Part shown: positions 10,293-62,677 of the stretch, piece by piece
Layout of the letters: each line of letters opens with the position of its first letter
How positions within the stretch are numbered: position 1 is the first letter of the stretch
Virus record (IMG/VR): IMGVR_UViG_3300021957_004962
Span: 1-64,000 of that record
Origin: a virus
Direction: 5' to 3' (one strand)
DNA: 64,000 nt
Made by a program: the position numbers and the translations under genes
Notes under the pieces: model-generated
What the model was told of the DNA's origin: nothing
Databases searched by the model: none
Seen by the model: the letters and a program-made list of their open reading frames with translations, nothing else

Positions 10293-10682
10293 TTATGCTA
10301 GGTCTAGTATAACTGATACGCCAGCTTCAGCGGCACTGAGGTTCCACTGTACTTTTGTTTTTGATGCAAACTGTGTTCCTGAATCTGCTACTACTGTGCA
10401 AGTTCTACCAGAAATTTTACTTACAAAGTAAGTTCCGTTCACACTATCTTTACATTTGATAACCATTTCACCAGTAGCAGCTGGTACATCCGTTACTAGT
10501 TTGCAAATTTGGTCTGGTTGATCGACCCCAGACAGCGCAGTTGCTACTAGAAAACGCTTACTACCTTTTTGCTTGATTATATGAGCATTACCAAATAGTT
10601 GGGTAGTGTATGCGGCTGGTGCAATTTGGGCACCAGCGTCTGCTCGTGCGCCGAAATTTCTCTTGTTTAGTGGTCTTCCCAT
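10293..10682 (-). CDS. Probable virion structural protein, MGRPLNKR family (copy 1)
   Basis: 129 aa starting MGRPLNKRNFGARADAG, with later HIIKQKGSKRFLV and KISGRTCTV. A paralogue lies directly upstream (10793-11164). I know MGRPLNKR proteins as small, abundant virion-type proteins of T4-like marine phages. Rich in small residues and beta structure. Good SD (AAGGAGAAAA). It has its own late promoter and intrinsic terminator, fitting high late expression. Confidence 0.7.
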   Translation of the reverse strand: MGRPLNKRNFGARADAGAQIAPAAYTTQLFGNAHIIKQKGSKRFLVATALSGVDQPDQICKLVTDVPAATGEMVIKCKDSVNGTYFVSKISGRTCTVVADSGTQFASKTKVQWNLSAAEAGVSVILDLA

Positions 10683-10792
10683 TTGTTTTCTCCTTAAAAA
10701 GAAGTCCTATGCGAGTTCTAGTCGCTACGCTGTGGGTACAGCATAAGTCCTCTCATGAGTACTATTGGACATACGTATTTATGCTGCCTTAA
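10683..10792 (-). promoter_or_regulatory. Late promoter and leader, duplicated cassette copy 1
   Basis: A late promoter (CATAAATA at 10776-10783) is followed by a leader of about 85 nt with a hairpin-forming segment. The leader is nearly identical to the one upstream of the paralogue (11165-11264), so the gene and its control region were duplicated together. Confidence 0.7.
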
Positions 10793-11164
10793 TTATAGAA
10801 AGTCGATTACAACACTTTCATTAACCACGGCGCCAATTTTGTTCCAAGGAACTTTATCGCCTTGAGCAAATTGTGTACCTGTCTGTGGTTTAACTGTACA
10901 TGTTCTACCTGAGATTTTAGTAACATCATAAGTACCTGCTGCACTGTCTGTTACGTTAATTCTCACTTCGCCTACGCCTGGTGCGCCTGCTCCTAATGAA
11001 CAAACTGCTTCACTTCCGCCTACATCACATAGAAAACGCTTGCTGCCTGTTTGCTTTACAATATGACCTGCGCTTGCGCCAGCACCTACGTCTGCTGTTA
11101 CCCTGATCTGGAACCCATCATTACCTGGATTGCCAAAGTGTCTTTTGTTTAGTGGTCTTCCCAT
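10793..11164 (-). CDS. Probable virion structural protein, MGRPLNKR family (copy 2)
   Basis: 123 aa, MGRPLNKRHFGNPGNDG. It is a paralogue of the 10293-10682 protein, with shared HIVKQTGSKRFLC, GTYDVTKISGRTCTV and GTQFAQGDKVPWN. No enzyme motif. Strong SD, own late promoter. Confidence 0.7.
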   Translation of the reverse strand: MGRPLNKRHFGNPGNDGFQIRVTADVGAGASAGHIVKQTGSKRFLCDVGGSEAVCSLGAGAPGVGEVRINVTDSAAGTYDVTKISGRTCTVKPQTGTQFAQGDKVPWNKIGAVVNESVVIDFL

Positions 11165-11264
11165 TTGTTTTCTCCTTAAAAAGAAGTCCTACGCCCGTTC
11201 TATGGGCTACGCTGTGGTGCAGCATAAGTCCTCTCATGAGTACTATTGGACACACGTATTTAGT
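11165..11264 (-). promoter_or_regulatory. Late promoter and leader, duplicated cassette copy 2
   Basis: ACTAAATA at 11257-11264 plus a leader that matches the 10683-10792 leader nearly base for base, except a changed but still self-complementary loop region. Confidence 0.7.
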
Positions 11265-13627: not shown

Positions 13628-13660
13628 ATAAAAAAAGCAGTGCCGAAACACTGCTTTTAT
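13628..13660 (-). terminator. Intrinsic terminator
   Basis: Minus strand: AAAGCAGTG-TTTCGG-CACTGC followed by a T run. Ends the 13678-13932 transcript. Confidence 0.8.
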
Positions 13661-13677
13661 TTTAGTATTACTAAAAC

Positions 13678-13932
13678 TTAGTCTTCAAATGTTGCAACAA
13701 TTGCTGTTGCTTCTGCGCCTGTTGGGTTAGCTACTGCACCGCCACCTTGGATTGCAAAGTGCATTGTTCCGCCGTGTGCGCCGTCGACGCCTGCAATTGT
13801 GTGTCCTGCTGCGCCTACTGCTTTTTCAAATGCATCTAATGCCGCTTGATCTGATGGTGCTGCTGAAACGATTTGTGTTACTGAACCTAAGCCGTTGCCT
13901 GCTTTGGTTGCTGCGTTTGTTGTTAAAGCCAT
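13678..13932 (-). CDS. Probable small virion protein
   Basis: 84 aa, Ala/Gly-rich (MALTTNAATKAGNGLG...). No family recognised. Strong SD (AGAGGAGA), late promoter upstream and terminator downstream suggest an abundant late product. Confidence 0.55.
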   Translation of the reverse strand: MALTTNAATKAGNGLGSVTQIVSAAPSDQAALDAFEKAVGAAGHTIAGVDGAHGGTMHFAIQGGGAVANPTGAEATAIVATFED

Positions 13933-13978
13933 TTCTGGTCTCCTCTAAAAATTCATTACACTATATTGTGTACCTATA

Positions 13979-13986
13979 TATTTATT
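13979..13986 (-). promoter_or_regulatory. Late promoter (AATAAATA)
   Basis: Upstream of the gene at 13678-13932, with the start 47 nt downstream. Confidence 0.5.
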
Positions 13987-14002
13987 TATCTATTTTATGT
14001 GT

Positions 14003-14668
14003 TTAAATCTGTTTAACTTCAATTAATTTTACAAGTGCCGTCCATCTAATAGTACTTGAAGCTCTTCCACTGCCTGAAACATTTAGTGAAGTATCATTAG
14101 AGGTTAGGCCGATTATAGCATCTAAATCAAATCCTGGTCCAGATGAAATAGTAGTTTTTTGTTCATTAATTTTACTCATACTACCATAATTGTCAACATT
14201 GATTGCACCAGTAAATTGTATGGCGGCATGATTAGTTCCTGCATTACCTCTGCCTATTACATCAATTTCATAAAAATAAGTTGTATTATTATCTAAGATA
14301 ATTTTATTATTGAGTGAATCTCTATAAAGTTCTGATACTGTGTTATTAACTGTTGTGCCGTATAACACATATTCATATTTTGTAACAGGATCAATAGTCT
14401 CGTCAGATTCTAATAGTGCAGCACCTGTAATTGTTATTTGAGTATCAGTAAGCTCAACAACACTGCTAGTTGCAAAATCAGTAATACCAGTTAAACCACC
14501 ACCGCCTCCGCCACCACCGCCTTGTAATACTATACCGCCTGGTGTCACGCCGTCACTGAGTCTAAATGATCTAGTTGCAAGATCAAAAAATAGTCTATTC
14601 TTTTCGCCTACATAATCAGGACCATCAAGTTTTTTATTAAGACTAGTAACTAATTTTTGAACAGACAT
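14003..14668 (-). CDS. Tail-fibre-like virion protein with Mtd-N-type start
   Basis: 221 aa. Residues 20-48 (NRLFFDLATRSFRLSDGVTP) match the N-terminal tropism-determinant repeat (A...L.Y...T..fkiGDG.tp) that anchors phage fibre proteins. A run of nine Gly then acts as a hinge, followed by a beta-rich domain (about 160 aa). It could be a short fibre or head decoration. Abuts the next gene with no gap. Confidence 0.6.
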   Translation of the reverse strand: MSVQKLVTSLNKKLDGPDYVGEKNRLFFDLATRSFRLSDGVTPGGIVLQGGGGGGGGGLTGITDFATSSVVELTDTQITITGAALLESDETIDPVTKYEYVLYGTTVNNTVSELYRDSLNNKIILDNNTTYFYEIDVIGRGNAGTNHAAIQFTGAINVDNYGSMSKINEQKTTISSGPGFDLDAIIGLTSNDTSLNVSGSGRASSTIRWTALVKLIEVKQI

Positions 14669-15188: not shown

Positions 15189-15864
15189 ACAGTTCATTTA
15201 TTAGAACACATTTTTTGGTTGATGTTATGTGTTTCTTAAACATCAGATGCAATGTGGCAACATCATCATATTCTTTTAAAAATATAGTACCAGTGTTAGT
15301 ATAAGGATCGTGCATTGTCTTGTGCCTAATAGACCGCTTCATAATATGATTCATCTGATAATTATTTGCGTCAAATGTTTCATCAACAAACTCAAAAATT
15401 TCAGACAGTATGTCGAGTGGTTGTCTACCATGTCTAGTAAAGCTAACCTTATATCTAAATTTATTATACCAAAGTTCTTTTTTTGTTACCAAGTCTAAAT
15501 TATCAATCATAAGCTCTTGATGTTTTTGGTTAATAGGCCCTTGTATTTGCAATATATCTTCACCCCAACGATCTACTAATTTAGATATTAAATTATGTTC
15601 AGTCAGATATACAAAAAACTTTCTGTCTCGCCTAACCTTCCAACGTTCATATCCTAATTGATTTTTTAAAAGTGAGTTGATGTCCATATTACGTATCATA
15701 CAAGTTCTCCATGCATTCTCATGCTCTAGATCTTTATAAAATCCACGTCTAAAGAACTCTGGTTGCCAAAACTGAATACGCCAAGGAAACTTTTTATAAT
15801 ATATTCCAGTAGCATAGGTAAATTCTGGTAAATTTTTAATTTGTTGTAATGTTAATACTGCCAT
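15187..15864 (-). CDS. Conserved hypothetical phage protein
   Basis: 225 aa, rich in aromatic and basic residues (FPWRIQFWQPEFFRRG, ERWKVRRDRKFFVY). No signal peptide or enzyme motif. Starts inside the 3' end of clpA (overlap 29 nt). No family recognised. Confidence 0.65.
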   Translation of the reverse strand: MAVLTLQQIKNLPEFTYATGIYYKKFPWRIQFWQPEFFRRGFYKDLEHENAWRTCMIRNMDINSLLKNQLGYERWKVRRDRKFFVYLTEHNLISKLVDRWGEDILQIQGPINQKHQELMIDNLDLVTKKELWYNKFRYKVSFTRHGRQPLDILSEIFEFVDETFDANNYQMNHIMKRSIRHKTMHDPYTNTGTIFLKEYDDVATLHLMFKKHITSTKKCVLINEL

Positions 15865-18079
15865 CTAATATTTCCAGTGTTACTGTTTTAATGTCACTAC
15901 CAAATAATAATTCTTTAGCAAGCGGTTTTTTGATTTGTTGATTAATGACACGTGCCATCGGCCTTGCGCCCATTGTTTCACTGAATCCATTGTCAGTTAG
16001 CCATTCAATTACTTTATCATCATATAATAGTACAATCTCCCGTGGAGTTAACATTGCTTCTAGTTCAGTAATAAACTTAACTGTAACATTTTTCATCAAT
16101 GTTCTGTCTAATTTTTTAAATTGCACAATTGCATCAAGTCTATTTCTAAACTCTGGACTAAAGAAACTTTTAACTGCCTCACCTGCTGCTGACTCATTTT
16201 TTCCAGCACCAAAGCCAATTAAGTTCTTTTCGCTATCAGCAGCACCTAAATTACTTGTAAGTATAATAATACAATTTCTAGCACTGACTGTTTTGCCGTC
16301 ACTTGATGTAACCATTCCATTATCCATTAGTTGTAACAATACGTTACTAACGTCTGGATGAGCCTTTTCAATCTCATCTAATAGTAAAATACTATTTGGA
16401 TTTTCTTCTAGTTTATTAATTAACAGACCACTACCTGAACCGCCTTCACTAAATCCAACGTAGCCTGGAGGACTGCCGATAAGTTTTGATACTGTATGTC
16501 TTTCTTGATATTCACTCATATCAAAACGTAATAATTCCATTCCCATGGTATTACTGAGCTGCTTTGCTGTTTCTGTTTTACCAACACCCGTTGGTCCACT
16601 AAACAAGTAACTGCCAATTGGTTTATCTTCTGCTTTAAGACCTGCTTTCGCAATGTAAATACTATCAGCTAACTTAGTGATAGCTTCTGATTGGCCAAAC
16701 ACTTTAAGATTTAATTGCTTTTCAATATCTACAGGCTTTTCTTTTTTGTACTCACTATCTTTGGTTAATACTAATTGGTCAATTGGTATCCTTGTTAGTT
16801 TAGCAACCTCAAATCTAATTTCATCTAAGTCAATAATACTCTTACGATCGTCTTTGGGAAGTAACCGTTGACGAGCCGCCGCACTATCAATTACATCAAA
16901 TGCTTTATCTGGAAGAAATTTATTATGCCAATATTGTGCAGTTAAGTCTACTGCACCATCAAGTGCGTTCTTAGTAAATGCAATCTCGTGGTGTGCTTCA
17001 TATGGATATATGCTGTTATTAATTATACGCTTTGCATCTGCCACACTTGGCTCAGGTACGTCTACTTTGTGAAATCTACGTACAAGTGCCTTATCTTTTT
17101 CAAAATGTTGGCGGTATTCATCATAGGTTGTACTACCAAGACAACGCAACTTTCCTTTTTGTAGTGCTGGCTTTAACATATTAGCAACATCCATTGCACC
17201 GGATCCACTATTGCCTGCTCCCATAATCATATGTATTTCATCAATAAACAAAATAGCATCGTCTCTTTTTTCTAATACATCTAGTACTTCTTTAAGTCGG
17301 TCTTCAAAGTCTCCTCTAAATTTAGTACCAGCTAATAAAGCACTTAAATCTAAACTATAAACAATATGTCCTTGTATTAGATCAGGAACACTTCCTTCAT
17401 TGATTAAATAAGCAAGTCCTTCGGCAATGGCAGTTTTGCCAACACCACTATCACCAACAAGCACAACATTATTCTTTTTACGACGAGCAAGGGTCTGTAC
17501 TGTTTCGGCTAATTCTTCTTCTCTACCAACAATAGCATCTATTTTACCACTAGCTGCTGATTCATTTAAATTTTCACAAAATTTACGTAATATCTTGTCA
17601 GCTTTTGTAATTGTTGGTGATGAATCTTGATTAATATTTTGCTCTCGAATACGATTAATATCCTGAAGATAGTTACTAACTGCATCTCTGTCAATACCGT
17701 ATTTTTGTAAAATAAAAGCACTTGGCGTTTGTTGCTCTGATAAAATACTAATCAGTAAATCTCTGGGGTCTAAGTTATTACGGCCATTGAACAATGCTTG
17801 CGTAAATGCTCTATGGAATACTCGCTCCAACATGACAGTCTTTTTGGGTTCTTGTTCTGTAGCATCTGGATAACTATCAACTGAATCTGCTAAATGATCG
17901 TATACTTCTCTGCTTATATCAGATGGATCTACACTAAAATCAGAAACAATATCCTTCACTTCATCTAAATCAAGAATAATAGCTAGTAAATGCTCAATAG
18001 TTACATAGTGGTGACGGTAATCTTTACTCAACATAAATGTCTTGTTTACGATTTTTTCAATCTTATCTTCATTAGACAA
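15836..18079 (-). CDS. clpA: ClpA-like AAA+ unfoldase
   Basis: 747 aa, near the 750-760 aa of bacterial ClpA. It has a Clp N-domain (residues 1-150), AAA-1 with GDSGVGKT Walker A and FIDEIHMI Walker B, and AAA-2 with GPTGVGKT and LLDEIEKAH plus the C-terminal lid. The loop NLIGFGAG precedes SFFSPEFRNRLD, where ClpA carries its IGL/IGF ClpP-docking loop, so it could feed host ClpP. No ClpP gene in the window. Starts at TTG with AGGAG 8 nt upstream. It may degrade tmRNA-tagged or host proteins. Confidence 0.92.
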   Translation of the reverse strand: MSNEDKIEKIVNKTFMLSKDYRHHYVTIEHLLAIILDLDEVKDIVSDFSVDPSDISREVYDHLADSVDSYPDATEQEPKKTVMLERVFHRAFTQALFNGRNNLDPRDLLISILSEQQTPSAFILQKYGIDRDAVSNYLQDINRIREQNINQDSSPTITKADKILRKFCENLNESAASGKIDAIVGREEELAETVQTLARRKKNNVVLVGDSGVGKTAIAEGLAYLINEGSVPDLIQGHIVYSLDLSALLAGTKFRGDFEDRLKEVLDVLEKRDDAILFIDEIHMIMGAGNSGSGAMDVANMLKPALQKGKLRCLGSTTYDEYRQHFEKDKALVRRFHKVDVPEPSVADAKRIINNSIYPYEAHHEIAFTKNALDGAVDLTAQYWHNKFLPDKAFDVIDSAAARQRLLPKDDRKSIIDLDEIRFEVAKLTRIPIDQLVLTKDSEYKKEKPVDIEKQLNLKVFGQSEAITKLADSIYIAKAGLKAEDKPIGSYLFSGPTGVGKTETAKQLSNTMGMELLRFDMSEYQERHTVSKLIGSPPGYVGFSEGGSGSGLLINKLEENPNSILLLDEIEKAHPDVSNVLLQLMDNGMVTSSDGKTVSARNCIIILTSNLGAADSEKNLIGFGAGKNESAAGEAVKSFFSPEFRNRLDAIVQFKKLDRTLMKNVTVKFITELEAMLTPREIVLLYDDKVIEWLTDNGFSETMGARPMARVINQQIKKPLAKELLFGSDIKTVTLEILDGSINITTN

Positions 18080-18098: not shown

Positions 18099-18950
18099 TT
18101 ATTCTAATAATTCCCCAATTGGGGTATTTAAATTGTCGACTGTTAATGGTGGTATAGAAACATCAATATGTAATATTAAATCACCATTTGGTTGATTGGG
18201 TTGTGGTAACCCATGTTGTGGTATTCTAAGTTTTGTATTTGGGCTAGTACCCGCCTTTATATTTAATTTAAATTGACTTCCGTCTATTCCGCTAATAGGG
18301 ATGTCACCACCAAATAATGCAGTTTTTAAACTTATATTAATTTTTTCATTTAAATTGTAACCATCTGTCCAAAACCTATTATGTTTTTTTAATCGATAAG
18401 TTACGATTAAATTACCAGGTGGTCCAGGAACGGAATCATCACCCATACTATTGTATCTTATCTTAGATCCTTCATGTACACCACGTGGAATGTGTATAGT
18501 AACAGTTCTAAAATTACCATTCATAAGATTTATATTTAAGTTTTTTTGAGATTCGTTTAATACTTCTTCTAATGTTACATGTGCAGTTATTTCTACATCC
18601 TGATTACGTTGGTGGTATTTTTGCTGTCTTCCAAACATACTATCAAACATACTATCAAATCCAGGAGGAGTGTTGTGATTATTGAATGGATTAGACTCTG
18701 CTTTATGTTGCCAGTTATGTGGGTTAGATGTATGCTGTTGTTGTTCTTGTTGGAACCTAGCATCGACATCTTTAATTGATTCATATGCAGTATTTACTTC
18801 ATTAAACTTTTTAGCATCTCCATTAGGAGTATCAGGATGCCATTTTTTTGCTAATTTTCTATACGCACTTTTAATATCACTATCAGTAGCAGTTTTGTCA
18901 ACACCTAATAGATCATATGGATCTGAATTTTTATATGGTTTTGTTGACAT
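18099..18950 (-). CDS. DnaJ/CbpA-type J-domain co-chaperone
   Basis: 283 aa. The J-domain (residues 10-70) has DPYDLLGV, AYRKLAKKWHPDTPNG with the HPD triad, and FNEVNTAYE. A short Gln/Asn-rich linker follows, then two C-terminal substrate-binding domains (ITAHVTLEEVLNESQKNLNI, KIRYNSMGDD). It lacks the CxxCxGxG zinc fingers, so it is class B (CbpA type). It would work with host DnaK in folding or assembly. Overlaps the o-spanin stop by TAATG. Confidence 0.9.
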   Translation of the reverse strand: MSTKPYKNSDPYDLLGVDKTATDSDIKSAYRKLAKKWHPDTPNGDAKKFNEVNTAYESIKDVDARFQQEQQQHTSNPHNWQHKAESNPFNNHNTPPGFDSMFDSMFGRQQKYHQRNQDVEITAHVTLEEVLNESQKNLNINLMNGNFRTVTIHIPRGVHEGSKIRYNSMGDDSVPGPPGNLIVTYRLKKHNRFWTDGYNLNEKINISLKTALFGGDIPISGIDGSQFKLNIKAGTSPNTKLRIPQHGLPQPNQPNGDLILHIDVSIPPLTVDNLNTPIGELLE

Positions 18951-19339
18951 TACTTTGCTACTGAGTTGTCTAGAGTTTCTTCTGCTTCAATATAATAATT
19001 TTTATATGCTACAATAATTGCTTGCTGTTGTTGTACTAGAGCACGTATGTCACTAAAGTTCAGACCTAAATTTTCATAACCTTGACCAGTTAATGCATAC
19101 AAACCAGTTGGAATGTTTTTTTCTTTAAGTTTAGCTAACTCATCATCTACATTTTCTTCATTAATAACAATCCATTCAATGCGGCGCATTGATACTTCGT
19201 CAACATCAGGCAATACCAATATTGGCTTTGTAACTGGTTTTGTTGATACATTTAAGGTGCTTGGTAAACTACTGCACCCACTAAGGAGTGTCATTACCAG
19301 GCCAAAGCCAAGGACACTCTTTGTTAAATTGTATGCCAT
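18950..19339 (-). CDS. Rz1-like outer-membrane spanin lipoprotein
   Basis: 129 aa from the ATG at 19339 (GGGAG upstream). The signal sequence MAYNLTKSVLGFGLVMTLLS ends in a lipobox, LLSGC at residues 16-20. The mature part is a Pro/Val-rich stretch, then helices with Gln-rich LVQQQQAIIVAYK. It starts inside the i-spanin gene in another frame, the classical Rz/Rz1 layout. Acts with its partner to fuse inner and outer membranes in lysis. Confidence 0.75.
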   Translation of the reverse strand: MAYNLTKSVLGFGLVMTLLSGCSSLPSTLNVSTKPVTKPILVLPDVDEVSMRRIEWIVINEENVDDELAKLKEKNIPTGLYALTGQGYENLGLNFSDIRALVQQQQAIIVAYKNYYIEAEETLDNSVAK

Positions 19340-19742
19340 TGGTGGCTCCCTTTTCCTTTTCATTTAAATCAGCACCACTTAATAATTCGAAACATCTTCC
19401 TGCATTTTCTGTACCTCTATTGACTGCTCTGCCAATCCCATCGGGATTATTAACTGCCGCTAGTCCAAGATCAATCGTTGCAAGTTTTTCATTTAATCTA
19501 TTATTTTGTTTCCGAACATTAGCAAATTGTTGATTAATAGTTGTTAGTTCTTCATTAACTCTTCTGTAATCTGATTCCAAAGAAGTTATAGTTTCTTCAT
19601 TTAAATTTATTGCTACGTTTAGTTTAGCATTATTTTCATTTAAGATTGCAATACGTTGCTGGGTGTCATTATAGTACCAGTAACCGACACCACTTGCGGC
19701 AATCAGTATTATAAACATAACACCTGCTAATTTTGCTCCCAT
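19281..19742 (-). CDS. Rz-like inner-membrane spanin
   Basis: 153 aa. One N-terminal membrane anchor (LAGVMFIILIAASGVGYWYY), then about 75 residues of coiled coil (Asn/Leu/Glu-rich heptads), then GRCFELLSGADL with a Cys that may form a dimer bond. Typical of Rz i-spanins. Its 3' end overlaps the o-spanin by 59 nt. SD GAGG. Confidence 0.75.
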   Translation of the reverse strand: MGAKLAGVMFIILIAASGVGYWYYNDTQQRIAILNENNAKLNVAINLNEETITSLESDYRRVNEELTTINQQFANVRKQNNRLNEKLATIDLGLAAVNNPDGIGRAVNRGTENAGRCFELLSGADLNEKEKGATNGIQFNKECPWLWPGNDTP

Positions 19743-24797: not shown

Positions 24798-25082
24798 TTA
24801 GCTTAATACAAATAATTGCACCATAGCAATGCTATTCATTACAACAAACCAAAGTGTCAGAACAATAGCAAATCCAGCCCGCCTAATCCAAGTACTAATC
24901 ACACCAAGTATACTGCCTACCAAATACATTGGAATGAAGATTTTAGTTGCTGGATCTAGCACAGTAAATGTTAGTACTGCACTAGCACCTATTAGCATTA
25001 CTGCCTCAACTAGTTCACAGTAAAATGCCAATGGTGACAGTGTATAACTATCTTTAAAAAATTGTTTAACTGATTCAATCAT
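24798..25082 (-). CDS. Small multi-pass membrane protein
   Basis: 94 aa with about three hydrophobic segments (VEAVMLIGASAVLTFTVL, IPMYLVGSILGVISTWI, FAIVLTLWFVVMNSIAMVQL). Starts within the last codons of the ligase gene (8-nt overlap). No family recognised. Confidence 0.65.
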   Translation of the reverse strand: MIESVKQFFKDSYTLSPLAFYCELVEAVMLIGASAVLTFTVLDPATKIFIPMYLVGSILGVISTWIRRAGFAIVLTLWFVVMNSIAMVQLFVLS

Positions 25083-26181
25083 TACGTACTCCTACACCAT
25101 AATCAATTACTACTGGAAAGCGAGGTACACCGTCGTTGCTGTATTCGAAGAATCTACAAGTAACCCAATTGGGTTTTACTTCCGCTTCTAACAGCTCTTT
25201 GAGTTGTGCTTGAGTGCCACGTACTCCACTGCCAAACTGTGTGCCATCTGGCATTGCAAGAACAAAACGTTTTGCATATCCAGTCCATGCACCTTGTCCT
25301 TCTATTACCTCTACTACGTCAAACTCTTCTGTGATAAACTCTTTACGCTTGAGTAGATTTTTGCTACGTTTACATTCGTATGGTGTGTTATTGCGGATCA
25401 TTTGTCCTTCATATCCACGTTCCATATAATCGCTGTACAGTGCATCTAGTTCCTCCTGGAAACTAGCATAATCTGTTTGTACAATATGTACAACATCACT
25501 TTTTGCACCTTTGGCAATTTTGATACGGTCTGCGAACTCCATGTCTGGGATATAGCAATCATATACGTGATACTGCACAAGCTCTGCACTTTCTGCAATC
25601 TCTTCTGGACGACATTTTACTTTACGCACAAGGCTAACAATCTTTTGAAAGTCTGCTTTAAGGTCGTGATTGTAAAGCTCACCATCCAGTACAATGCCTG
25701 GATTAGCGTCAATAAATGGCTTTACACTTTCCCAAACATGCGGACAACTTGTAATGGCTTTGCCGCTACGTGTCCATAGTCCGTTAGCATCTGCTACACA
25801 ACGGATACCATCTAGTTTAGGTTGACTGTAACCTTCGCTTTGTGGACGCTTGGTATAATCATGTGCAAGCATTGGCTTGAACTTTTCATACGTATCGATT
25901 TTGTTTACGTCTGCAAAATATTCTTTGTCAGCTTTTTTAGTCCACTGTGCATGTGCTTCATCTTGTGCTTGCTCTCTTGCAGTAGTGGCATTTGAACGTC
26001 CTACGTTCTTTGCTTCACTTATGTTCCAAACACTTGTGATCTTCTCGCCATCAACTAACCCGCTAATACTGCGGATACCTGCTGTATCTTCATTGTCGTA
26101 TCCAAACTCTATAGTCCAAATACGAACTTTGCCTTTTGAATCTCTTTTGTAAAGGCTGTTTAAACTAACTATATTCTGCAT
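25075..26181 (-). CDS. ATP-dependent DNA ligase
   Basis: 368 aa from the ATG at 26181 (AGAGGTGA upstream). Residues 1-85 form a WGR-like N-terminal domain (WTIEFGYDNED, KNVGRSNATTAREQAQDEA). The adenylation domain has the nucleophile motif QPKLDGIR, then VLDGELYNHD, EGQMIRNN and KRKEFITEEFDVVEV, and an OB domain ends the protein. Seals nicks using ATP. Promoter at 26216-26244. Confidence 0.88.
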   Translation of the reverse strand: MQNIVSLNSLYKRDSKGKVRIWTIEFGYDNEDTAGIRSISGLVDGEKITSVWNISEAKNVGRSNATTAREQAQDEAHAQWTKKADKEYFADVNKIDTYEKFKPMLAHDYTKRPQSEGYSQPKLDGIRCVADANGLWTRSGKAITSCPHVWESVKPFIDANPGIVLDGELYNHDLKADFQKIVSLVRKVKCRPEEIAESAELVQYHVYDCYIPDMEFADRIKIAKGAKSDVVHIVQTDYASFQEELDALYSDYMERGYEGQMIRNNTPYECKRSKNLLKRKEFITEEFDVVEVIEGQGAWTGYAKRFVLAMPDGTQFGSGVRGTQAQLKELLEAEVKPNWVTCRFFEYSNDGVPRFPVVIDYGVGVRND

Positions 26182-46087: not shown

Positions 46088-46444
46088 TTACTCAACAAAC
46101 TGTGCTAGTTGTGGTGCTTTCCAACCTTCTGGCTTTAGTACTTTTCCGTCTTCACGTTTGCGTACTTTGCCTGTGTCTGGATCAATCTTAGCAAAGTTTG
46201 TGTCCATTACTTCTTTCCAGGCCGCTTCGCCATCCCAACCTGCGGCACGAATAGCACCCATAGTAACAACAAGAATATCAATTAGTGCATCTAGTTGTTC
46301 TACTTTATCATTTGCAGCAACAGCTTCTAATAGCTCATCCATTTCTTCATCTACAAGACTTAGATACATCTTGTAATTTGCTTCACTGGGTGGTTGGTCA
46401 CATGCTGTGCCAAATGTTTCAATATCTTTAAATGGGTTTGTCAT
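46088..46444 (-). CDS. MazG-like nucleotide pyrophosphohydrolase
   Basis: 118 aa. LVDEEMDELLEA (E-x-x-E-x-x-E) and LDALIDILVV (D-x-x-D) give the metal site of all-alpha NTP pyrophosphatases; the tail GWKAPQLAQFVE is typical of the phage sub-family. Hydrolyses (d)NTPs or related nucleotides; in marine phages it is thought to modulate host nucleotide or alarmone state. Confidence 0.85.
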   Translation of the reverse strand: MTNPFKDIETFGTACDQPPSEANYKMYLSLVDEEMDELLEAVAANDKVEQLDALIDILVVTMGAIRAAGWDGEAAWKEVMDTNFAKIDPDTGKVRKREDGKVLKPEGWKAPQLAQFVE

Positions 46445-58796: not shown

Positions 58797-59582
58797 CTAG
58801 TCTATACTTAACATTCCATCTTCAGATATTTCAATTCCATCAACAATAAATTCTTCTACTAAAGTTAAAAATAAAGTATGTAATTCTTCATAGTTCTCTA
58901 TCATATCTTTATTATCAATATTTTTTGTCAAAACATGTTGTACTTGATCTTCGTTATTTAAATCTGCAAACCCATGCACTTTACGTTTAATATCAACATG
59001 ATCATCTGAAAAGTCTTCATATGCTAATACAATGTGGTTTTTAAATTCATTCATAAACTCTACAAGAATCTTATATTGTTCTACATAGAACATAAACTTT
59101 TCAGTAAAGTATTCTTGATCAAATGTAAGTTGGTTGCTTAGTTTAGCAGTATGAGTTTGAAAATGATTAATGTCATCATCATTTTTATTTTTATATTCTG
59201 CTATACAGTAACTAATTATTGTAGAAAAAAGATCTTGTCTATATAGTATTACAGTATTCCAATTATGTTTTATGTATTCTTCCCATAAAATAGGATGGGA
59301 GTCTTTCATTTCTTTTAGTGGCACTACTACATTCTTTACCACTACATTGTCACTGTTTAACGAATCGAAAAATTTTGAATTTTCAATAACATATTGTGCA
59401 TCAGATAAATCCTCTTCGTCGAAAAGTTCTCCTCCTAATAGTAGATCGTCATAAGGTACTCCAATTGGCTCATTGAAACGATATACACTATCGCCCACCA
59501 ATTCATCACTTAAAACTTGATGAAGAAAAGTACTGCCAGTTCGACCAGGTGCAACGATTTGTATTTTATATTTCTCTGTCAT
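58797..59582 (-). CDS. Sulfotransferase-like protein
   Basis: 261 aa. IQIVAPGRTGSTFLHQVLSD is the 5'-phosphosulfate-binding loop; VILYRQDLFSTIISYCIAEY matches the 3'-phosphate-binding R...S motif of PAPS sulfotransferases. Substrate unknown. It starts about 20 nt after the tmRNA coding piece, with AAAGGA upstream. Confidence 0.72.
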   Translation of the reverse strand: MTEKYKIQIVAPGRTGSTFLHQVLSDELVGDSVYRFNEPIGVPYDDLLLGGELFDEEDLSDAQYVIENSKFFDSLNSDNVVVKNVVVPLKEMKDSHPILWEEYIKHNWNTVILYRQDLFSTIISYCIAEYKNKNDDDINHFQTHTAKLSNQLTFDQEYFTEKFMFYVEQYKILVEFMNEFKNHIVLAYEDFSDDHVDIKRKVHGFADLNNEDQVQHVLTKNIDNKDMIENYEELHTLFLTLVEEFIVDGIEISEDGMLSID

Positions 59583-59599
59583 TAGATGTCCTTTACATT

Positions 59600-59766
59600 A
59601 GAGTGGCACTTCTGTTGCTAGGCAGTACCCGCCCCCACATACCCTTAGGCTGCTAATGCCATTTCTGGCGCTCTATTTGCGTTTGCATTTAGAAATGTTG
59701 ACCAATAACGCAGTCATCCGGTAAACTCCACTTCACTACCACACCTGTCGATCCTATTTCATCCCC
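59600..59766 (-). ncRNA. ssrA: tmRNA coding piece (5' part)
   Basis: Mature 5' end predicted at 59766: GGGGATGAAATAGGATCGAC, then AGG, matching the tmRNA start (acceptor strand plus the GGAxxCGAC D-arm region). The tag frame at 59645-59686 is followed by a G-rich hairpin region that can close helix P5. The 3' end near 59600 is approximate. Confidence 0.85.
59645..59686 (-). other. tmRNA tag reading frame (ANANRAPEMALAA)
   Basis: Resume codon GCA at 59686-59684, 13 codons and stop TAA. With the charged alanine the added tag reads A-ANANRAPEMALAA. The ending ALAA is the form recognised by ClpX/ClpA degradation systems. The preceding sequence is A/T-rich, as usual before a resume codon. Confidence 0.82.
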
Positions 59767-59767
59767 A

Positions 59768-59956
59768 TCATAAAGACACTGAATCTAAAGGTTTACAGAT
59801 ATATTCAACTGTATCCCAATGTCCGTCCGCTGGCATTTCTGTATATTCTACAAGCATAGTTTTACACTGTGCTTTAGTTTCAAACTGTTGTACATCTTGT
59901 TCTAAGCAGGTTGTGCCAGAACAAACTGTTAATAGTATGTGCCAGATAATTTCCAT
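59768..59956 (-). CDS. 62-aa Cys-rich protein inside the tmRNA intervening segment
   Basis: MEIIWHILLTVCSGTTCLEQ at the start (hydrophobic, signal-like), then Cys at 31 and 54. The ATG is 15 nt after the acceptor CCA (AAGGA between) and the TGA ends 1 nt before the mature 5' G of the coding piece. The layout resembles small secreted-type cyanophage proteins and the 56-aa protein at 33217. Codon use matches neighbours. Function unknown; it could be translated from the tmRNA precursor. Confidence 0.6.
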   Translation of the reverse strand: MEIIWHILLTVCSGTTCLEQDVQQFETKAQCKTMLVEYTEMPADGHWDTVEYICKPLDSVSL

Positions 59957-59970
59957 TCTCAATGTCCTTA

Positions 59971-60030
59971 TGGTGGAGATGCGCGGTACTGCCCCGCGGT
60001 CCAGTATGCGTTCACGTTGCTTCAACGTTT
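59971..60030 (-). ncRNA. ssrA: tmRNA acceptor piece (3' part)
   Basis: Ends at 59971 in CATCTCCACCA with encoded CCA. The T-arm is a 5-bp stem CGCGG/CCGCG with a 7-nt loop GGCAGTA. The loop differs from the usual TTCAANT and fits my memory of alphaproteobacterial two-piece tmRNAs. The 5' end is about 7 nt after the promoter. Confidence 0.85.
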
Positions 60031-60039
60031 ACAATATTA

Positions 60040-60068
60040 TTTATAACAGTAGTATATAACGATGTCAA
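60040..60068 (-). promoter_or_regulatory. Sigma70-type promoter of the tmRNA gene
   Basis: TTGACA, 17-bp spacer, TATAAA. The expected transcription start (about 60033) fits the acceptor piece. Confidence 0.7.
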
Positions 60069-61915: not shown

Positions 61916-62677
61916 ATGACAAATTATAACATAACAAATAATTTTAGTTATGCTAACGCCGCTCATTTTGCAAAATTAAGCGAATGGGCATACAAGGACA
62001 AAGTCAATTTTACAAAAAGTGTCAAATCATTAGGATATAAAGATATTATGTTTTTTGACAAAAATGGTGCGCAAGCATATGGTATAAGATTTAAGGATTA
62101 TGTTATATTAGCATTTAGAGGAACTGAGCCCACACAGTTTAGTGATATAAAAGCAGATCTCAGAGCATTTCATGTAAAGAACGAACTAGGTATAGGAAGA
62201 GTACATAAAGGATTTAAAAATCAAGTAAATCATCTTTGGCCAGAAATTGAAAAATGGTTATTGAAAAAACCATATAAACAAGCATATACCTGTGGGCATA
62301 GTTTGGGTGCAGCAATGAGTACTATTGCAACTAGTAGACTGCCTGCTGGAACAATATGTTATAACTTTGGAAGTCCAAGAACTGGCACTAAAAGTTGGGT
62401 CAAGGAAGTTAATAAAAATTTTACAATACATCGTTTTGTAAACAATAATGATATTGTAACTCGTGTTCCTCCAGCTTCATTATTCTTTAAACATGCTGGA
62501 AATTTACATTACATTAATACATATGGAAATATTCGTAATGCTACGTTATGGCAACGATTTAAAGACAGGTTTAGGGGATATCGTGCAGCGTGGAAACAGC
62601 GCCAATTTTTTGATAGTTTAAGTGATCATAGTATGACCCACTATGTTAAACACATATCAAATAAAATCGAAGCCTAA
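61916..62677 (+). CDS. Class 3 lipase-like protein
   Basis: 253 aa. VILAFRGTEPTQFSDI, catalytic Ser in YTCGHSLGAA, FGSPRTG, catalytic Asp in NNNDIVTRVPP, and a late His around AGNLHYIN. Lipase_3 alpha/beta hydrolase, no signal peptide. Found in several marine T4-like phages; may attack host lipids at lysis. Confidence 0.86.
   Translation: MTNYNITNNFSYANAAHFAKLSEWAYKDKVNFTKSVKSLGYKDIMFFDKNGAQAYGIRFKDYVILAFRGTEPTQFSDIKADLRAFHVKNELGIGRVHKGFKNQVNHLWPEIEKWLLKKPYKQAYTCGHSLGAAMSTIATSRLPAGTICYNFGSPRTGTKSWVKEVNKNFTIHRFVNNNDIVTRVPPASLFFKHAGNLHYINTYGNIRNATLWQRFKDRFRGYRAAWKQRQFFDSLSDHSMTHYVKHISNKIEA

Follow-up and report, generated by a model that had tools for sequence, protein, structure and literature searches.

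Within a 64,000-nucleotide stretch of viral DNA (hereafter the window), which is part of the 107,580-base viral record IMGVR_UViG_3300021957_004962, a full-length phage ClpA is encoded together with a permuted tmRNA whose intervening segment carries a small reading frame under purifying selection. We consider that the phage genes for ClpA and tmRNA are probably both functional, although inherited separately, and that the tmRNA locus is probably a composite gene, in which one gene for a small protein lies inside another for a non-coding RNA. The features on which this reading rests are collected in Table 1. Another contig, 78 kb long and with a ClpA 99% identical to this one, extends 54 kb past the left end of the record, indicating that the genome of the phage is larger than the record itself.

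Table 1. Features of the ClpA and tmRNA loci, with positions in the window
Feature	Position	Strand	Basis
Phage ClpA (Hsp100 unfoldase), 747 aa	15836..18079	-	ORF, Pfam, NCBIfam, PDB alignment
IGF tripeptide, ClpP-docking loop (aa 621-623)	16211..16219	-	Aligned on E. coli IGL
DnaJ/CbpA-type co-chaperone, directly upstream of clpA	18099..18950	-	Profile and neighbourhood comparison
Permuted two-piece tmRNA locus, acceptor piece first	59554-60063	-	ARAGORN, Rfam
Coding piece, begins GGGGATG	59600..59766	-	Rfam
Tag reading frame ANANRAPEMALAA and stop	59645..59686	-	ARAGORN and reading
Intervening segment, 204 nt, between CCACCA and GGGG	59767..59970	-	Segment scan
Nested 62-aa ORF, ATG to TGA	59768..59956	-	Reading, selection, predicted structure
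Stem 3' arm, TCAGTGTCTTTA (encodes S V S L in the nested ORF)	59771..59782	-	Pairing and covariation
Stem 5' arm, TAAGGACATTGA	59959..59970	-	Pairing and covariation
Shine-Dalgarno AAGGA, 8 nt before the nested ATG, within the stem	59965..59969	-	Reading and Shine-Dalgarno scan
Acceptor piece: T arm, acceptor 3' strand CATCTCC, ACCA	59971..60032	-	Rfam and covariation
Promoter-like TTGACA-17-TATAAA before the tmRNA	60040..60068	-	2 in window vs 0.09 expected

The tmRNA gene and the reading frame nested in it

The tmRNA is of the alphaproteobacterial permuted, two-piece type and scored above the gathering cut-off with two Rfam models (RF04321, 109.8 bits; RF01849, 106.4 bits), its two pieces and the spacer between them together occupying 59600..60032 on the minus strand. 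The tag frame ends in a Clp-type degron, so that the ALAA tag end recognized in the original prediction is upheld. The T4-type late promoter motif TATAAATA occurs six times in the window against ten expected and is therefore not enriched, for which reason we do not read the copy within the tmRNA promoter as a promoter of that type. Gene order, acceptor stem, T arm and tag frame are the same as in alphaproteobacterial permuted tmRNAs (RF01849/RF04321). The difference lies in the intervening segment, which in 109 bacterial genomes has a median length of 29 nt and a maximum of 116, whereas that of the phage is far longer and protein-coding.

The acceptor and T stems covary, with changes on both sides of a pair in 40 cells as compared to 9.6 in shuffled and at most 6 in slid controls. 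Three acceptor pairs are altered on both sides among 17 nested relatives, and G3-U70 is invariant in all 17. These observations bear on whether the nested gene might be real and the tmRNA around it a decaying remnant, as altered motifs in the coding piece of some relatives (GGGCC, GATAGAC) could suggest. We regard this as very unlikely, because the change to GGGCC is matched by a compensating one in the acceptor stem (GGGCC with GGTCC), the acceptor pairs are 100% retained in the 17 sequences and the tag frame and stop of the window are intact.

The nested ORF ends one base short of the coding piece, and its TGA is the UGA of the conserved UGAU. Its family is under purifying selection, with a pN/pS of 0.30 (mean pS 0.44, mean pN 0.13) and variable columns divided 29/16/51 by codon position, and the same holds for most pairs of five other families of nested ORFs; such ratios show that an ORF is a gene, not that it is translated from a tmRNA precursor. 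The family has four conserved cysteines, and AlphaFold2 predicted a beta-beta-alpha-beta fold for the protein (mean pLDDT 88.6) that looks much like those of numerous small phage proteins without an assigned role. No match to the protein was found in Pfam, NCBIfam or PHROGs, and a search with the predicted fold returned no significant PDB or viral match. The best PDB entry by Foldseek, 8g9s chain A (E 0.28, Z 5.3), was level with pieces of topoisomerases, and as the match is insignificant and tied we read no function from it.

Long intervening segments of this kind recur among viral tmRNAs. With the same search pattern, segments of at least 120 nt were found in 34 of 120 viral permuted tmRNAs, whereas none of the 109 bacterial tmRNAs had one. 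The tmRNA identity was upheld by covariance models at the 16 loci checked; the tmRNAs of L106, L114, L196 and L173 escaped ARAGORN and were recovered by the covariance model alone. Among the 34 long viral segments, 28 contain a significant ORF, i.e., one longer than 95% of dinucleotide shuffles (p<=0.05), and 13 contain one at p<=0.01, with the longest ORF occupying a median of 89% of the segment. The nested ORFs fall into 19 sequence groups, four hand-read ORFs included, and represent many unrelated families. Upstream of the nested ORFs an SD-like motif is present in 23 of 31 cases, compared to 12% in shuffled leaders, a count that, like that of extended stems given in the last section, uses an earlier segment set in which the acceptor piece is misplaced in L166 and L150. 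Most of the ORFs terminate on letters that belong to the tmRNA itself, whether the UGA within the conserved UGAU or a UAG, that of GGGGCGAAAUAG, and 12 of 34 ORFs (p<=0.05, segments of at least 100 nt) read into the coding piece and stop at the TAG of GGGGCGAAATAG.

Could the nested ORF be an accident, an open frame without meaning in a segment that is neutral filler? Significant ORFs are few in segments shorter than 120 nt (7 of 45), as that reading would have it. However, the purifying selection refutes it for the nested family of the window, and it is also at odds with the selection seen in most pairs of the five other families, with ORF lengths exceeding those of shuffles in the long segments, with the Shine-Dalgarno motifs, with the confidently predicted fold and with the annotation of a homologous protein, gp85, in phage Melnitz, so that we consider it scarcely tenable. 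No ORF was found in the intervening segment of DSS3_MAL1, of L148 or of many short segments. Sinorhizobium phage Phosso has an unannotated permuted tmRNA (L407, 1033-1635) whose intervening segment, ~410 nt long, contains no convincing ORF. Another family, with the pattern VKGH...RLW.NEE...EGFEEAY, is nested in permuted phage tmRNAs of the alpha type as well as of the beta type (L238, 7898-8368, with no ordinary start codon; L241, 3843-4379; L086; L196). Other RNA elements, namely glutamine riboswitches, a manA RNA and a GOLLD RNA, were seen near phage tmRNAs (L404, 3102-3150; L117, 2150-2198; L173, 662-870; L406, 767-1230).

The closest comparison among cultured phages is with Melnitz, a Methylophilales phage (OM43 host H5P1) that is also a large marine myophage with a permuted alpha-type tmRNA (PMC9004378). 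Melnitz gp85 belongs to the same small protein family as the nested ORF (59% identical), but is free-standing and lies directly upstream of ssrA, whereas the family member in the window lies inside the tmRNA. The intervening segment of Melnitz is filled by a different small ORF, MFKWLSKTRLVVITRDYFRERNRKADAKIPKYLSGTRSVYDGGELGSTGRNRKV, which spans 46096-46260 of MZ577097, is unannotated, has a Shine-Dalgarno and is akin to ORFs of L144, L153 and L156; a glutamine riboswitch follows, and there is no ClpA. The tmRNA and the glutamine riboswitch are both reported in the Melnitz paper (PMC9004378), in the text of which the word "intervening" was not found. In other viral contigs a homologue is likewise situated directly upstream of the tmRNA, and in four (L478, L481, L485, L488) it sits between tRNA-Thr and tRNA-Leu: it begins ~15 nt past the first tRNA, and its end coincides with the beginning of the second or lies only a few bases from it. 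Judging from the latter copies, the intervening segment is used much as a spacer between two tRNA-type ends would be. Nested copies account for 29 of the 80 homologues retrieved (30 with that of the window). They could not be assigned to a single clade, as the tree requires five changes and is compatible with one or several moves. Four other families of nested ORFs had no match among isolate phages.

Extra genetic content within a tmRNA gene has been described before, as permuted intervening sequences with a tRNA-Ala or a repeat and as a tmRNA with a group I intron bearing a homing endonuclease gene (PMC11915505). In those cases the content is a tRNA, a repeat or an endonuclease borne by an intron in the T-loop, whereas that of the phage is a plain small protein gene. 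No description of a protein gene in a permuted intervening sequence was found in the open-access literature searched, so that the novelty of the arrangement is provisional.

ClpA, its neighbours and its partners

The ClpA ORF begins with a TTG start codon and, as originally proposed, it is full-length and has an IGF-type loop at the docking position; its IGF falls on the docking IGL of E. coli ClpA. It contains a Clp_N domain and two AAA+ modules with Walker A and B motifs (Pfam Clp_N, AAA_lid_9, AAA_2 at 188 bits and ClpB_D2-small), and its alignment with E. coli ClpA (PDB 1ksf/6w1z, ~672 bits) runs from end to end, the M (middle) domain typical of ClpB being absent. Its best NCBIfam family is TIGR02639 ClpA (850.7 bits over 3-725/734). 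As this score is below the curated equivalog cut-off of 993.15 bits, we have filed the protein as a divergent phage ClpA-type protein and not as an equivalog. Among 85 aligned ClpA sequences, nearly all from phages, no variation occurs at the key Walker A and B residues or at the GF of the docking loop (85/85), and the residue preceding the GF is I in 77 and V in eight. Judged from its sequence, the phage ClpA with its IGF loop could be compatible with host ClpP.

The dnaJ-clpA pair is conserved across related contigs; the two genes are also adjacent in Atu_ph07 and PA5oct and are separated by one gene in Phosso. Near the pair are an Rz-like spanin (18950-19363, phrog_812) and two head/packaging proteins. 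The former is part of an overlapping gene pair resembling i-spanin/o-spanin lysis genes, directly upstream of dnaJ-clpA (18950-19742, minus strand). The ClpA proteins of jumbo phages (Atu_ph07, Phosso, RaK2, PA5oct) are likewise full-length with the GF loop, some with DnaJ adjoining, and the ClpP, ClpA and DnaJ of jumbo phages have been noted previously (PMC7824862). They differ in that a full-length phage ClpP was present in all ten ClpA-bearing isolates tested, whereas none was found in the record containing the window, an incomplete genome in which the gene could lie outside the sequenced part. ClpP is also encoded by several metagenomic ClpA contigs, and was not found in G001, in the relatives at 66-68% identity or in G087. 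SmpB was detected in none of the 26 records searched, the incomplete record of the window among them. With neither ClpP nor SmpB found in the record, the host proteins would be needed for both functions.

Its genomic setting raises the possibility that the principal role of ClpA, acting with DnaJ, is that of a late chaperone or unfoldase, in virion assembly or the timing of lysis, unrelated to tagged proteins. The adjoining spanin and head/packaging genes are consistent with this, as is the location of clpA among structural genes in RaK2-like phages and PA5oct, and a late chaperone role for jumbo-phage ClpA/ClpX has been suggested in a published overview (PMC7824862). However, the retention of the docking GF in every aligned sequence, together with a phage ClpP in each of the ten isolates, points to proteolysis, and we consider such a role a serious possibility, but a somewhat doubtful one.

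Elsewhere in the window there are two freshwater-2 RNA motifs on the minus strand (10680-10762, 71.7 bits; 11162-11243, 66.4 bits), each directly ahead of a small gene, the two genes (10293-10682 and 10793-11164) being similar to each other. There is also a class 3 lipase gene (Lipase_3, 61916-62677, plus strand), a homologue of which, at 45% identity, is present in relatives G004 and G006.

Occurrence of ClpA and tmRNA across phages

It had been proposed that the ClpA and tmRNA of this phage, placed 42 kb apart (about 41.5 kb as measured here), form a self-supplied set. In that reading they would be a single dedicated phage system in which stalled products are tagged and then degraded with host ClpP. 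In its favor, the tag ends in ALAA, the IGF loop is intact, and ClpA and tmRNA occur together in G087 (ClpP not found), as they do in G074, G104, G067, G017, G023, G030, G032 and Phosso. The co-occurrence of ssrA and clpA, suggested as a check on the proposal, nevertheless proved patchy, with the two genes separate across phages. Phosso is the only one of ten ClpA isolates to have a tmRNA, the other nine having ClpA without it. Permuted tmRNAs were found in 4 of 50 ClpA contigs, each of these four being >200 kb; among the ClpA contigs of at least 100 kb the count was 4 of 12, leaving eight large contigs with ClpA and no tmRNA. Conversely, ClpA was identified in 2 of 35 tmRNA contigs, and three complete phages (Melnitz, DSS3_MAL1 and MD18) have tmRNA without ClpA. 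No match above cut-off to the standard one-piece tmRNA was obtained in the 50 ClpA contigs or in the isolates. Most of the contigs in these counts are fragments, so that absences from them are weak evidence and the test of co-occurrence is limited.

For a sample unbiased with respect to either gene, we used 22 relatives chosen by NrdA, of which 16 had tmRNA and three a full ClpA. All three also had tmRNA, an outcome with a chance probability of 0.36. The most similar case to the window is the 172-kb contig G087, in which a 72% identical ClpA accompanies the tmRNA. Across phages there is thus no general link between ClpA and tmRNA, and within the closest lineage of the window (G087) the two may be used together. 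Phage ClpA goes with phage ClpP rather than with tmRNA; clpA and the tmRNA gene are unlinked on the genome, and ClpA usually accompanies phage ClpP and DnaJ. Of the original proposal, therefore, the apparent functionality of both genes and the fit of the IGF loop to host ClpP have stood, while a dedicated set is unsupported across phages, and we judge it distinctly unlikely.

Two tmRNA-bearing contigs, G097 (24809-25357) and G106 (13638-14183), encode ClpX-length AAA+ proteins (383 and 387 residues), another kind of phage unfoldase alongside a phage tmRNA. Contig L583 (CAKLQF020000008.1, labeled "Acinetobacter phage MD-2021a") has argC, aroF and clpS-clpA and resembles a bacterial contig despite the label.

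Pairing over the intervening segment and the proposed composite gene

In the window the two arms of the stem (TAAGGACATTGA with TCAGTGTCTTTA) pair over 12 bases and extend the acceptor stem. Among the 17 nested relatives this 12-bp stem is 98.5% paired; most of its pairs are invariant and only three of the 12 change on both sides, because the 3' arm is under coding constraint. Helices of at least 8 bp that extend the acceptor stem are present in 84-97% of viral segments of at least 60 nt, as against 1-2% of shuffled controls and 17-29% of bacterial ones. The stem of the window includes the Shine-Dalgarno, which in Melnitz and others comes just past the stem. With the Shine-Dalgarno and the last codons paired above the acceptor stem, we infer that folding of the precursor and translation of the nested ORF compete.

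In the composite gene that we favor, the tmRNA would be transcribed from its own promoter as a single precursor, which host tRNA-processing enzymes would cut into the two pieces, and the mature tmRNA would be charged with alanine and work with host SmpB. The intervening segment would serve as a protein-coding spacer, such as phages also have between two tRNAs, providing the Shine-Dalgarno and the ORF, whose stop codon is taken from the conserved UGAU. Once folded, the precursor should no longer allow the nested ORF to be translated, as the ORF's Shine-Dalgarno and last codons pair atop the acceptor stem, and a ribosome completing the ORF would have to open that stem. Separately encoded, ClpA, adjoining DnaJ and the lysis/head genes, would partner ClpP, that of the host in this lineage and that of the phage in most others.

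It is feasible that this competition makes the precursor two-way, either held open by ribosomes or folded, with its Shine-Dalgarno hidden, and matured. For the classes of ORF that read through into the coding piece, the message left by the RNase P cut would lack a stop codon, and the nested product would consequently be tagged by the very tmRNA from which it came, a self-limiting loop. We put forward this extension, in both its parts, tentatively and think it rather unlikely.

If the composite gene is as we propose, a core non-coding RNA gene would double as the messenger of a small protein, with folding and translation as rivals for the same bases. The nested arrangement recurs across many lineages of marine phages, the small proteins being unrelated, and has been unannotated even in a cultured phage.
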